Below, in pieces: positions 35,870 through 41,108 of a stretch of DNA of 64,000 bases. The notes under the pieces were generated by a model. It ran no database searches and was not told where the DNA came from. It saw only the letters and a program-made list of their open reading frames with translations. The translations under genes and the position numbers were made by a program. Position 1 is the stretch's first letter; each line of letters opens with the position of its first letter. The stretch spans positions 124,001 to 188,000 of the forward strand of contig VUYT01000033.1 of assembly GCA_008802785.1 (NCBI GenBank), read 5' to 3'. Source of the DNA: Symmetrospora coprosmae. Its lineage: Eukaryota; Basidiomycota; Cystobasidiomycetes; Symmetrosporaceae.

Positions 35870-36159
35870 TATGATGGTAGCTGCCGGCCAAGTGATCCAT
35901 GGCGGACAAGGGGTGACACTGTGGGAACGGCAGGCCTGCTGACCTGTGATAGACAGAGGCCTGGATCCGGCGCAGGCACGATTTGCAGCGCCTTTACCAG
36001 GGTGGTCTGGGATGCCACTAGGATGGAATAATCAAGGGGATATCGTCGAATGACCATAAAAGCGTGTCCGCCCACCCATTTCTCCCTTGCCTCCCGACGG
36101 CACCGAGACAGACTACAATCGCCCCTATATCCGAAATCGCCCACGATCCAGATCACAAC
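35870..36159 (+). promoter_or_regulatory. Upstream block of zinc-finger gene A (duplicated), TATA at 36055
   Basis: Positions 35870-36080 match 37215-37425 upstream of gene B over about 200 bp. This includes a 25-bp identical core at 35906-35930 (paired with 37264-37288; it contains gggtgacactgtggg). A TATA-like cataaaag sits at 36055-36062, 98 bp before the ATG, and is followed in both copies by gcgtgt. The conservation suggests a shared core promoter. Confidence 0.65.
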
Positions 36160-36945
36160 ATGTCGTACGAGTGCCAGATTTGGTCAGTCTGCGAATCCTT
36201 TCGATAGGGTTGTCTCCTTTGCTTGCTTGCTAACAACTTCTAGCATCTGCAGTGCCACTTCATTTGGCCGCCAGACGGACCTCGACGGTGGGCAATTGCG
36301 CTTATGATGGTTGGCTAGACATGTTGCTGTGCCAGTTGAAGCTAATGTTATCAATCTTCTAGTGCACGCGCCCACGTGTGCTTTCCTTCGCAGTGTTGCC
36401 TTATCGACGGGCGGCGTTCTTCATGGGAAGTCAGCTAGCAACTGGCGAGCGAGCGAGTATAGAGATATGTGTCCCCTCGCTAGCGGGCGAAAATGCCAAC
36501 AACCAATCATGGGCGGCGGTGAGGACTTCCGACTTGCATATCGTGCATGCAACTGCCTGTCTCTATCCAAGCTGACTATGAAGTCGCCTCCTCGCTAGTC
36601 GGTAACATCGTTATGCACCTGACTAAATCTAAAACCCATAGACTTGCACGGGTCGACGGCAAGTTCCTAAAAGAGGCCTTAGCCGACATCAAAGCCGCTG
36701 CGAGGAGAGAGCGCGAAAACGCAAAGCTTGCTCTGCAAAGAAGGGTACAGTCAGCGGCAGAAGCATCTGACGCTACGGCACGCAGGAACTATCGACCCAT
36801 AGCTCCGGCTAATACCCATAGTACCCCTCCGCGAGCAACCACTCCTCTTCGTTCTCGGACCGGCTTCACCCCGCTGCCACAGACGCCGCCTCACCGTGGA
36901 TCCAAGAGCCCGTCCACTACACCCGGTGGTACACGCAAGCACTAA
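36160..36945 (+). CDS. Small two-zinc-finger protein A of a tandem family
   Basis: Function unknown; fold inferred. Exons 36160-36182, 36244-36287, 36363-36518 and 36599-36945; 189 residues. All junctions keep phase (2, 1, 1) and introns carry GCTAAC, CTAAT or CTGAC branch sites. The N-terminus gives C5-x2-C8-x15-H24-x3-C28, with the first intron inside the codon of C8. A middle stretch (VALSTGGVLHGKSASNWR) aligns with gene B. A second motif follows: C-x7-C (CPLASGRKC) and H-x6-H (HLTKSKTH), split by intron 3. The tail is basic and Pro/Ser/Thr-rich (SKSPSTTPGGTRKH). The pattern suggests a zinc-binding, possibly nucleic-acid-binding protein. I know no family with this combination. Confidence 0.68.
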
Positions 36946-37497
36946 GACGGAGTCTGGCACACTGATTCGAGCGTCTATATTGACTAGACGATCCGACAGG
37001 TTCCAGAAATGTCTGATGCGATGTCCAGATCCCCTCCTAACAGTCCTCTTCATACCCTAGACGCTACTGCTAGCCTGCCTTCCGAAATTCATATATGCAA
37101 TGGTCTAACTCCATCTTACCGTCCCTCATGTTACCTCTGCACTCGCCCGTAGTTTGGAGATACTGAAAGGGCAGCTGATCCTCATGCGATTGACAGCTGA
37201 CCTGCTTACCGTGCAGTCGTGTCGTCTGGCTACGGCAGCTGCCGACCAGCTGATCCGTGCCAGACAAGGGGTGACACTGTGGGAACGGTAGGCCTGCTGT
37301 TCTGCGCCAGACAGAGGCTTGAATCCGGAACAGGCACGATCATGCAGCGCCTCCACCAGGGTGATCTGGGGATGTCATTGCGACGAGATGGCCAAAGGGA
37401 GTGACCTGAGTCGACTATAAGAGCGTGTACCGCTCCATCACCTCTCTTGACTCTCGGTTCCATCTAAGCACAGTCTCCACGAAGCTCAGGCACCATC
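36946..37497 (+). promoter_or_regulatory. Upstream block of zinc-finger gene B, TATA at 37415
   Basis: Two overlapping duplications meet here. Positions 37215-37425 match the block upstream of gene A, and about 37057-37300 match 38400-38640 upstream of gene C (shared cataccctagacgct, gctagcctgcct, ccatcttaccgtccctc). ctataagag at 37415-37423 is a TATA-like box about 80 bp before the ATG. Confidence 0.65.
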
Positions 37498-38275
37498 ATG
37501 CCTTCCAAAAGATTCTGCTCGCGATGGTCAGCTTGCTGCCTTGTTCTTCATCTTCAGATCGTGTTTATTCATGCTGACGATGTGCGCTGGCTGTCTTACA
37601 GCGCTAAAAGGTCCAAGAGCAAGGAAGATGAAGACGGTGCGTTAAGCCGAATTCGAAGGGGGCGCTTCTCCAATGTCATGGACCGTTATGACTGACGGTC
37701 TGGCGTGCCGTCAGAGCACGACAGGATCTGCTTACTCATATGCGCGATTGCCCTCTCGGCTGCCGGGAAGTATAATGGCAAGGCCGAGAGTGATTGGAGA
37801 ATAGAGATGTTCCGCTCAAAAATCCCGTGTCCGCTGGCATCATGTTTGACTTCAATCCAGCAGGAAGGTATGCTTAAAACTTGGTACCATCCGATGCCGG
37901 CGCTGGCACGGCTTATCGCTGATACGAGCCCTTCCTGCGGCAGCGGGTGGCGTTGCCAGACACCTCCGGACTGTTCACAGTGGCGAGCAGCACAACGGCA
38001 TGGCCTTCTCGGACCTCTTCAAGTCCTCCGATGCCAGTCGGCGCCAAGCGAAGGCGTACTCTCGAGCAAAGCAGCCTCGCGCTGGCGAGTCCAGTGCCGC
38101 CGGGGCAGCCAACGCTACGAGACAGATTCGTTCGTCGGCTTCGCGGACACCTCCTACTAGGACACCTCCGCCTAGAACAACTCCGACTGGAACTCCTCCG
38201 CCTGGATCGGGATCTGCTCGTCAGGCCTCGAAGAGCCCTTCCAAATCACCCGGAGGCACACCAAGGACTCGCTAG
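37498..38275 (+). CDS. Small two-zinc-finger protein B of a tandem family
   Basis: Function unknown; fold inferred. Exons 37498-37526, 37602-37636, 37715-37867 and 37944-38275; 182 residues, intron phases 2, 1, 1 as in gene A. The first motif is C7-x2-C10-x12-H23-x3-C27, a textbook C2HC spacing (FCSRC ... EHDRIC). The second is C-x4-C (CPLASC), then 13 residues, then H-x4-H (HLRTVH), close to a classical C2H2 finger. Between them IALSAAGKYNGKAESDWR aligns with gene A. The tail has TPP repeats and ends SKSPSKSPGGTPRTR, resembling SPKK-type minor-groove-binding repeats. The reading frame is intact and the upstream block is duplicated. A short Lys/Glu/Asp run (KRSKSKEDEDE) fills finger 1. Confidence 0.7.
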
Positions 38276-38865
38276 CTCCTAGATAGTCTTGCGACCCCTC
38301 GATCCAAAAGGCTCTTTCATCAGATACGCCGGCAACATTCGAAATGGATCAATGCTATTCTCGCAGTTCCCTTCCACTGTCCCCCTTCCAACACGCTGCT
38401 CATACCCTAGACGCTTCTGCTAGCCTGCCTCCGGAAACTCATGTATGCACTGAGCACTGACTTGAATCCATCTTACCGTCCCTCCTGCTTGCCTTTGCAC
38501 TCACCCCATGGAACTACTGTGCGGACAGCTAACGTTGATGCCGACGGCAGCTGACCTACCTACCGTGCAGTCGAGTCGTCTGGCTGCAGCAGCTGACGAT
38601 CAGCTGACTTGGCCCGGTCAAAGGGAGCCGTGTGGGAAAGACAGCCCTGCTGGCCATACGAGCAAGAGGACTGCATCCGGGGGAGGCAATGCCCGGCCGC
38701 GCCTCTGCAAAGATGAGGTGGAAATGTCATGAGGACCTGCTGGATAAAAGGATCTAGGATCCGCTGGGTATATAGGAGGATCTGGTTGCGGTCACTCATC
38801 GACTTCCGACAACTCCTAGCCTCGCATCCGATACACCGTGCTATTTCGACCGTACGACTGTCGAT
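38276..38865 (+). promoter_or_regulatory. Upstream block of zinc-finger gene C, TATA at 38769
   Basis: About 38400-38640 is a diverged duplicate of 37057-37300, continuing less clearly to about 38780. tatata at 38769-38774 lies 92 bp before the ATG, with a second AT-rich site (ggataaaag) about 25 bp further upstream. No coding sequence is seen. Confidence 0.6.
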
Positions 38866-39565
38866 ATGGGTAACACCCCTTGGGCATGCGGCATTTGGTG
38901 AGTCATTCGGTGTCAATGTAGACCGTTGCCGTCTCGATTAAACGTCGGCAGTATCCCCCTCGCTCTCCGACAATAGCCACGCTGAGTTGAAGCTGGATGC
39001 TGGAGCAAAGAAGCGTAAGCTCGCCGTGCTATTGTCCTGCTTGGCCTTTCGGCTGTCAGGGCTGAGCTTCAGCTTCTGGCAGATCACGAGCAGATTTGTG
39101 GTGCCAGAATAAGACTCGCTGCTCAGCAGTTTCCCGACAGGCAGTACAACCCAGCGACCCGTACCTGCCCCTGCTGCTGGCGCTCGGACTTCAGTACCCA
39201 GGTCCGCGCTCTACTTCCTGGCCCCTGTGTGCTATGTCCCGTCACTGACGATATGCTGTTCCCGACCAGCATCCCTCTTCTTACACATACAGACACACAC
39301 GGACATTACGCTGGATGGGCAACCGCTTACCAATGTTTTTGCGGGATATCGGAAAACGTCTGCTTCCTACACTCGGCCTAACGCAACTGTCCAACGCCAG
39401 CCGGTGGTACGCAAGCCGGTCGTACGCAAGACGATAGTACACCAGCCTGTCCAGCATTTGAGGCTGCCTCCCCCTACGGGCTATTTACTGCCGTCGCAAG
39501 CACAGCGTCCCGCGTACCCCGATGGGCCTTTCGCAGACGGCGTTAGAGATTTCTTCAGGAAGTAG
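38866..39565 (+). CDS. Small two-zinc-finger protein C of a tandem family
   Basis: Function unknown; fold inferred. Exons 38866-38897, 38977-39014, 39083-39226 and 39270-39565; 169 residues; intron phases 2, 1, 1 match genes A and B. The first motif is C8-x2-C11-x13-H25-x3-C29 (ACGIC ... HHEQIC). The second begins TCPCCWRSDFSTQ and ends LFLHIQTH (H-x3-H), again split by intron 3. After the finger, DGQPLTNVF aligns with NGMAFSDLF of gene B. The tail differs from A and B: VVRKPVVRKTIV repeats and an end in DFFRK. The second exon's acceptor (CAATAG, 38976) has a branch site unusually close to it, so that join is the least certain. Confidence 0.6.
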
Positions 39566-39732: not shown

Positions 39733-41108
39733 TCAGATCGAAGCTGAGTCGGATGTTCCACCTTCCACAGAGACAGCATCGCTCAAGCCTTCCGCGTCCA
39801 CTCCCTCTTCAGCACCGCTTTCCTCCGTCCCGGGGTGGTACCAAACGTGCGGCGAAAAGTCGTCCACCCAGTCAATAATGCATTCCACCCCTCTCGCCTC
39901 GCACAGCCTCGTCGCCTCCGCTATGTCCGCGCCACCAAAGCCTTTCTGGGCAATCCGACATCCAGACGTTCGAGGTACACCTGCCATTGCGGATCTGCGA
40001 GATGAGCAGCGAGCTGATGCACGATGTCGGAGGGTGTGTAGAATCCGAGCTGGGTGAGATAGAGACGTCGTAGCTTGGGCGGAAGAAGGCTGGCGTCCAC
40101 GGAAGACAGAGGGCATGACAGCACGAGCTCGCGAAGAGCAGCGAAGGCGCTGTAGTCGAGCACGGCCGGCTGCCATGGCAAGTCGGGATAGTGGACTGTT
40201 GCCGCGTGCTGAATCTCCAGGCTGAGCAGACGCTTTCGCACGAATCCGCAGATCTTGCCGAGATTCCTCGCTGCGGCGAGACCGTGCTCGTCAAAAGGCG
40301 GTGAGACATATAGATTGAGGTATAGACTCTTCAGAACTGGCGCTTGCTTGGCGACGGCCAAGGCGAAGTCGCTGTTGCAATCGTTGCCGGAGCCCAAATC
40401 GACGCCGCGCAGCTCGGTCAAATGGGCGAATAGCGGTAGCTCGTAGGCACCTGCAGGAATCGGCTCGGGAAGGTGGAGGGTACGAAGGGTAGCACCGGCG
40501 CGGCGTACTAGTTCCACAGTTGGTACTCCGTCCGGAAATCCCGATGCCCTGTACTCCAGGGTCTGCAGGCGGTCGGCCTGCACGGCCTGCTCGATGAGAT
40601 GAAGCGTTTCCACCCAGGCATCCTTGAATGGATATACCAAGTCGGAAGAGCCTACGTGTAAATACTGCGGTGATGTGCAGCTGAGGAAGTCACGCAGCGC
40701 TTCCGGCGTGACGGCAACGTCCTCCGGGTCGGGGCGACACCCATATAGGGCGACGCGGAGCACATTGAGATTGCGGATGAGGCGCCTGACATTGCTGAGC
40801 TCGTTCACGCAGTGGAAGAGCTTGGCGGGCTCTAGGTACGGCACAATGGTCTGTTTGTCGTCGCTGACATGACAGTGGATGGCCACCCAAGCCCATTTGT
40901 ACAGGGCCGTTTGTAAGGCGCGATGAAAGCGCTTGCAGACGAGCATCCAGGAAAGGACTGTGGCGTTGAGCAGATGTGTGTCACAAGGACCGATCTCGAG
41001 CTACGGTATGGTGCCGCGAAACGCACTGGTCGATCTAGGCCTCTTGATATCGCCGACTGTCGCCACCCTTTCGAGGATTTCCAGGGGAAGGGAGTTGATG
41101 GTGATCAT
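39733..41108 (-). CDS. F-box protein with one apparent frameshift
   Basis: Probable substrate adaptor of an SCF ubiquitin ligase. Exon 1 41027-41108 starts MITINSLPLEILERVA, the first half of an F-box. Intron 1 joins it to exon 2 from 40957 with ILSWMLVCKRFHRALQTALY, the second half. A leucine-rich body follows (LRTLHLPEPIP, LRRLYLTQLGFY). Near 39940-39950 the frame changes by one base: the long frame would end shortly after RLDVGLPRK, while the next frame continues GFGGADIAEATRLCEARGVE and stops at 39733. That ending (LCEARG) is typical of fungal F-box proteins, so the true product probably has about 410 residues. One missing base, a sequencing error or a recent mutation would explain it. 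Confidence 0.7.

Follow-up and report, generated by a model that had tools for sequence, protein, structure and literature searches.

The question raised by positions 35,870 to 39,565 of the window, by which we mean the whole 64,000-nucleotide (nt) stretch of Symmetrospora coprosmae contig VUYT01000033.1 analyzed here, is whether three small gene models lying one after the other form a genuine tandem array of zinc-finger genes, and what such genes might be for. That the three predicted genes (genes 1, 2 and 3) form a real tandem array is partly confirmed by our data. We read genes 1 and 2 as old paralogues and gene 3 as a diverged member of the same family, the products being nuclear zinc-finger regulators and the genes probably standing under the same regulator; judged from sequence, this reading as a whole has, in our estimate, a probability of about one half.

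A tandem array with two clear paralogues

The array consists of three plus-strand units, ~1.35 kb apart, between a histone H3 gene and a minus-strand open reading frame (ORF). Each unit is made up of a promoter block, a TATA-like site ~80–105 nt 5′ of the ATG and a four-exon gene model (coordinates in Table 1). All three models lie on the same strand and have four exons, GT-AG introns, intron phases 2-1-1 and intact frames, with intron lengths of 68–80 nt across the array in the base models. Enumerating models from the three ATGs (three introns of 43–95 nt, phases 2-1-1, last exon open), we recovered all of the originally predicted proteins of 189, 182 and 169 residues. Restricting donors to GTNNG left genes 1, 2 and 3 with 4, 2 and 3 models, respectively, of which 2, 1 and 1 contained both of the proposed cysteine/histidine fingers; admitting any GT donor, the numbers were 6, 2 and 4, with both fingers in 4, 1 and 2. 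As a control, 500 ATGs were taken from the remainder of the window (both strands, GTNNG donors only). Just 8 of them yielded any comparable model, and finger 1 occurred in none; the finger comparison thus rests on 8 ATGs rather than on 500, and the scarcity of any such model is itself part of the evidence for the array.

In genes 1 and 2, a CTRAY branch point lies 17–24 nt from the AG in every one of the six introns (taking intron 1 of gene 1 to end at 36252), as against 102 of the 3876 YAG sites in the window with CTRAY at that distance (2.6%). For the first acceptor of gene 1 there are two choices, with the branch point 19 nt away in a 186-residue form and 10 nt away in the 189-residue form, and because of this spacing we prefer the 186-residue model.

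On sequence comparison, genes 1 and 2 are certainly paralogues. Their proteins align with a score of 192, while none of 1000 shuffles exceeded 76, and the first 105 residues score 113 against a shuffle mean of 26. The similarity is found in the proposed frames: these score 101 in exon 4, where the eight other frame pairs reach at most 45, and 82 in exon 3, where other frame pairs reach at most 28. Compared with shuffles, pairwise alignments of exons 1–4 lie at 0.4, 1.8, 3.5 and 6.8 standard deviations (SD), those of the three introns at −0.3 to 1.7 SD and that of the stretch from TATA to ATG at 3.4 SD. Over 177 aligned codons, non-synonymous divergence (dN) is 0.77 and synonymous divergence (dS) is 2.39, i.e. 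near saturation, and identity at codon positions 1–3 is 0.492, 0.520 and 0.367. As a two-sequence test the dN/dS comparison is crude; it points to old duplicates under some protein constraint. The array had been described as fast-evolving, and in the sense of selection for change this description finds no support in the near-saturated dS, the dN value and the better conservation of second over third codon positions.

The predicted layout of two Cys/His sites followed by a basic tail holds for genes 1 and 2, with one refinement. Finger 1 of gene 1 reads C-x2-C-x12-H-x3-C in the preferred 186-residue form (x15 in the 189-residue model), which is identical in spacing to finger 1 of gene 2 (C-x2-C-x12-H-x3-C); gene 3 has C-x2-C-x13-H-x3-C. 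At the second site, gene 1 reads C-x7-C-x13-H-x6-H and gene 2 reads C-x4-C-x13-H-x4-H. The proposed ligands include all five cysteines of gene 1 and five of the six that gene 2 contains. Predicted isoelectric points are 9.9–10.7 for the proteins and 11.3–12.0 for the tails (gene 3 as 169 residues). The tails of genes 1 and 2 share the C-terminal motif SKSPS-x2-PGGT, and Ser/Thr-Pro pairs number 6 in gene 1, 7 in gene 2 and one in gene 3 (169 residues). Within the tail of gene 2, positions 38147–38206 consist of three similar units with a spacing of 15 bases that encode a Thr-Pro-rich sequence (repeat family D4).

Gene 3 and the evidence against a three-member family of regulators

Several observations weigh against our reading. 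Whichever of three models is taken, the gene 3 protein is significantly similar neither to that of gene 1 nor to that of gene 2: out of 1000 shuffles, as high a score is reached against gene 1 by 290, 107 and 79 for the 158-, 169- and 118-residue forms, respectively, and against gene 2 by 278, 383 and 486 (256 and 307 of 1000, respectively, in a separate run with the 158-residue form). Furthermore, 2 of the 3 gene 3 introns lack a CTRAY branch point. The codon usage of the array is unlike that of its neighbours, as measured in frame: gene 1 has −0.15 bits per codon, gene 2 has −0.07 and the gene 3 models range from −0.13 to −0.25, while six neighbouring ORFs lie between 0.18 and 0.35 and a seventh at −0.02, these same seven ORFs being the training set. 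All matches to domain models remain under the curated cut-offs, and there is not one for gene 1 in its 189-residue form; gene 2 has no match in PDB. Finally, the core hydrophobic residues between the ligands, which are present in finger 1 of gene 1, are absent from finger 1 of gene 2, where the usual Phe and Leu are missing (read by inspection from the sequences).

The 3′ half of gene 3 is uncertain, since the donor of its third intron may be GTACCC, GTCCGC or GTGTGC. The mean splice score is 4.23 for the 118-residue model (GTCCGC), 4.07 for the 158-residue model and 4.5 for the 169-residue model, the last being a mean of three intron scores that includes a 43-nt intron, the shortest in the array and below the minimum of the scan. 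Two further models, tied for best at 4.23, lack finger 1, which is present in 15 of the 234 gene 3 models of the splice scan. In the 118-residue form, the frame of the last exon scores worse than that of the longer models. Individual introns of gene 3 score 4.1, 4.2 and 3.9 (5.2 for the 43-nt version of intron 3), compared with 5.0–5.6 for genes 1 and 2. A MAFFT alignment of the three proteins (A1), in which gene 3 shows 27% identity, was not used as evidence, as gene 3 is aligned by force and the shuffles are non-significant; with gene 3 as 158 residues, it still served as the query for the three-protein profile searches of the protein collection, NCBIfam, PDB and IMG/VR.

The strongest alternative to our reading follows from these data, namely that only genes 1 and 2 are functional, making two working members, and that gene 3 is a copy that has decayed or been restructured, with a still recognizable promoter. 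The missing branch points, the lower splice scores, the non-significant protein similarity and the competing models, two of the best without finger 1, all speak for it, whereas the last exon of gene 3 is open over 98 codons and its finger 1 occurs with the same phases, a pattern absent from the 8 control ATGs that gave a model. We consider decay of gene 3 quite possible, somewhat short of an even chance. It is the upstream DNA, not the protein, that makes gene 3 a member of the family, which thus has two sure members and one probable member. The tandem array claimed originally is therefore real in its common strand, intact frames, exon number and phases, but less uniform than described, with gene 3 weakened.

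Promoter and spacer blocks

In the array, the likeness among promoters and spacers far exceeds that among gene bodies, a feature absent from the original prediction. In the promoter block, genes 1 and 2 agree at 146 of 183 aligned bases (80%, z 30), and the spacer blocks that follow the two genes agree at 156 of 199 (78%, z 29); for both kinds of block, shuffled alignments average 63% identity. The promoter repeat comprises 107 nt at 84% and 28 nt at 89%, and a query with the DNA upstream of gene 2 matches 35876–36011 at 84%. No match to the spacer block above shuffles was found before gene 1 or after gene 3. The DNA upstream of gene 3 gives local matches of 72% over 185 bases and 71% over 331 bases, and its promoter aligns with z 15.8 to gene 2 and z 12.7 to gene 1, the plain identities of 64% and 67%, respectively, being about those of shuffled alignments (64%). 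Common upstream DNA, as expected of one tandem family, is thus found for genes 1–3.

Two conserved cores were searched for separately. A 22-base core occurs without mismatch only at the three array copies, and six other sites with 3 mismatches compare with one control match. A second core of 21 bases is likewise found without mismatch only in the array, with ten other sites (one at 1 mismatch, nine at 2) compared with three control matches. The site with 1 mismatch lies on contig C13 and may point to a further gene controlled in the same way. In a fold of the promoter copies, 9 of 56 pairs are changed on both sides, a count that comes from three sequences only, and the window contains no Rfam match at gathering score.

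As the introns of genes 1 and 2 are at shuffle level and the blocks at z ~30, one neutral rate cannot easily give both. Either constraint on a common regulation or gene conversion would explain the likeness of the blocks. Ongoing conversion would keep spacers and promoters alike irrespective of function, the gene bodies being too diverged to take part, and the fairly even likeness of the promoter blocks of genes 1 and 2 along both repeat segments would fit, as would the drop in similarity near the TATA-like site. The gene 3 block, however, is about equally far from those of genes 1 and 2 and has conserved patches in common with them, which fits descent under constraint. From this comparison of three sequences we regard conversion as the sole cause as a possibility to be held tentatively, with odds of about one in three. 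If instead the block is held by constraint, its binding factor could be sought directly.

Relatives in the genome and in sequence collections

Searches of the 20.05-Mb genome scored the best candidates only and saw exons one by one. Within these limits, protein and DNA searches list only the three array copies, with nothing outside the array better than an expectation value (E) of 0.136; the gene 3 search finds gene 3 alone at E up to 10. Neither Pfam nor NCBIfam contains a model that takes in genes 1–3 above its cut-off; NCBIfam lists none, and the Pfam listing extends to E 10, with the HMMER filters dropping most matches above ~0.1. In Pfam, the 186-residue form of gene 1 has two sub-threshold finger matches (E 0.084 and, for zf-C2H2, 0.13) and gene 2 a sub-threshold zinc ribbon (E 0.031), while gene 3 has no match as 158, 169 or 118 residues. 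For zf-C2H2 (PF00096), the cut-off is 25.2 bits; the 186-residue form of gene 1 reaches 13.2 bits, and the 189-residue form, gene 2 and gene 3 have no match. An exon-by-exon scan of 62 candidates in the genome with this model did not place the array among the 33 places listed at E up to 0.01. In PDB, 10 of 12 matches of gene 1 are classical zinc fingers aligned at finger 1 (best Gfi-1, E 0.02), the other two being SRP54; the family profile matches ZBTB7A best (E 0.027), and gene 3 (169 residues) has one match (E 2.3).

A search of 5.8 billion proteins with gene 2 gave no match at E 1. The three-protein profile finds a single record in the protein collection at E up to 10 (P0001, 150 residues, on two contigs), which from its eleventh residue is, by eye, the open frame of the window (~36490–36945) that holds the last exon of gene 1. 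Residue 10 of this record is a tryptophan, whereas at the corresponding place, the donor of intron 3 of gene 1, the window has TGA; either it is a gene call with TGA read as Trp, or the strains differ. A scan of IMG/VR gave 31 pattern matches, none of them a relative.

How closely related organisms are represented in the collection was judged from the neighbouring G-patch gene, for which scoring covered the 8000 candidates that share most words with it. Its best hit, Cystobasidium minutum, shows 43% identity over the whole length, and other records show at most 49% over 83% or 55% over 34%. Of the 24 hits, 14 are named: Cystobasidium minutum, eight Rhodotorula, two Sporobolomyces, Dichomitus, Polyporus and Exophiala. 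The suggestion that the DNA comes from a smut finds no support here, as there is no smut among these 14 and Cystobasidium belongs to Pucciniomycotina, as the host probably does too, a result that concerns one gene. As the nearest relatives in the collection are distant, the lack of array homologues is weak evidence. The proposed small, unrecognized family is borne out in that the genome searches show no copy beyond the locus and that no Pfam or NCBIfam model reaches its cut-off. We recognized no description matching the array in those parts of the literature that we covered, which is no proof that the family is unpublished. The family is apparently confined to the locus and is ordinary in kind, but no family model claims it.

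Proposed function of the array proteins

None of the three proteins contains a strongly hydrophobic 19-residue stretch (maximum hydropathy 0.71–1.21). Small, basic proteins without such a stretch and, in gene 1, with a finger of classical type fit nuclear, nucleic-acid-binding regulators best. We propose that the products of genes 1 and 2 start with a C2HC finger of classical C2H2 type, followed after ~30 residues by another C2H2-like site, both presumed to bind zinc, and by a long basic tail that contains Ser/Thr-Pro pairs and could be phosphorylated. Gene 3 would be the third and more diverged member, possibly decaying. Each gene would have its own TATA-type promoter of common descent and would thus probably be expressed under the same regulator. 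Each protein would act as a nuclear regulator, fingers and basic tail together contacting nucleic acid; binding of nucleic acid by the array proteins is plausible.

The fingers could instead be protein-binding modules and the proteins adaptors rather than nucleic-acid binders. Rad18-type ubiquitin-binding C2HC fingers have the spacing C-x2-C-x(11–12)-H-x3-C, which is nearly that of finger 1 in the array, and lone fingers standing far apart are unlike the usual DNA-reading array. To our knowledge, however, the Rad18 type has no such basic tail or second site, its Pfam family is not listed for the array proteins at E up to 10 (within the filter limit given above), the PDB matches of gene 1 are mostly to classical fingers, and the tails are strongly basic; we therefore find an adaptor role unlikely. 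Far less probable still is a self-contained control locus in which the 0.2-kb promoter block is the target of the very finger proteins it drives, so that they regulate their own and their neighbours' genes; if true, the proteins would diverge everywhere but at their zinc ligands without any change in the target.

That the array is non-coding, its finger patterns being the product of free splice-site choice, can be set aside as most improbable: weak codon bias and the lack of a homologue from another organism in the protein collection would fit, but there are only 2–4 GTNNG models per gene with both fingers in at least one for each, genes 1 and 2 are far more similar in frame over exons 3 and 4 than in other frame pairs, and the branch points of their introns far exceed the background. 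Of the six frames, the proposed one also scores highest in genes 1 and 2, as it does in gene 3 modelled as 153, 158 or 169 residues.

Weak finger signatures in orphan genes are nothing unusual among fungi, so the interest of the array is moderate. It offers a compact case of tandem genes whose promoters have outlasted coding similarity, in a thinly sampled fungal group, and a small zinc-finger layout missed by the family libraries scanned.

Neighbourhood of the array

The window has a guanine plus cytosine content of 60.7%, which speaks against the Cyphobasidium lichen genome (PMC8355462), with 51–52%, as its source. The minus-strand ORF downstream of the array has a single sub-threshold Pfam match (DUF317, E 0.092) and four diverged relatives in the genome. 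Three of these are located on contig C13 (29–33% identity, two adjacent); the fourth, on C26, has 30% identity and an internal stop.

Table 1. Features of the array and its surroundings (positions in the window)
Feature	Position	Strand	Remarks
Histone H3 gene	near 35.0 kb	minus	assigned by reading the translation
Promoter block, gene 1	35876..36060	+	similar to gene 2 and gene 3 blocks; CATAAAAG ~105 nt before ATG
Gene 1	36160..36945	+	exons 36160–36182, 36253–36287 (or 36244–36287), 36363–36518, 36599–36945; 186 (or 189) residues
Spacer block after gene 1	37030..37233	+	repeats D1, D5, D6; repeated at 38380–38587
Promoter block, gene 2	37234..37420	+	CTATAAGAG ~83 nt before ATG
Gene 2	37498..38275	+	exons 37498–37526, 37602–37636, 37715–37867, 37944–38275; 182 residues
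Spacer block after gene 2	38380..38587	+	DNA repeat of 37030..37233
Promoter block, gene 3	38588..38772	+	TATATAGG ~97 nt before ATG; TATA position read from sequence
Gene 3 (3′ half uncertain)	38866..39565	+	exons 38866–38897, 38977–39014, 39083–39193 (or –39226, or –39201), 39270–39565 (or –39437); 158, 169 or 118 residues
Neighbour ORF	39921–40946	minus	F-box-like by eye; no Pfam family over cut-off

Comparison with known zinc-finger systems

C2H2 genes of Basidiomycota, some of them tandemly duplicated, have been described (PMC12295980); the Pucciniomycotina examples given there are mostly singletons (56% in Microbotryum intermedium, 67% in Mixia osmundae). In the passages covered nothing like the array is described, and the terms C2HC, Rhodotorula and Cystobasid do not occur in the main text; what the two have in common is finger-bearing basidiomycete genes with tandem duplicates among them.

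Set beside the zf-C2H2 family (PF00096), finger 1 of gene 1 (186 residues) has the core aromatic-x-C-x2-C-x3-F-x5-L-x2-H, with Cys as its last ligand. The array proteins differ in having no tandem array of fingers and in the long Cys and His spacings of finger 2. Classical fingers are spaced C-x(2–4)-C-x12-H-x(3–5)-H/C. This spacing is found only in finger 1 of gene 1 (186 residues) and of gene 2; with x13, finger 1 of gene 3 departs from it, and so does finger 2 in genes 1 and 2. OrsD-like fungal proteins, whose Pfam family is not listed for the array proteins at E up to 10 under the same HMMER filter limit, have two separate Cys/His zinc-binding segments, and in this two-segment arrangement the array proteins resemble them.

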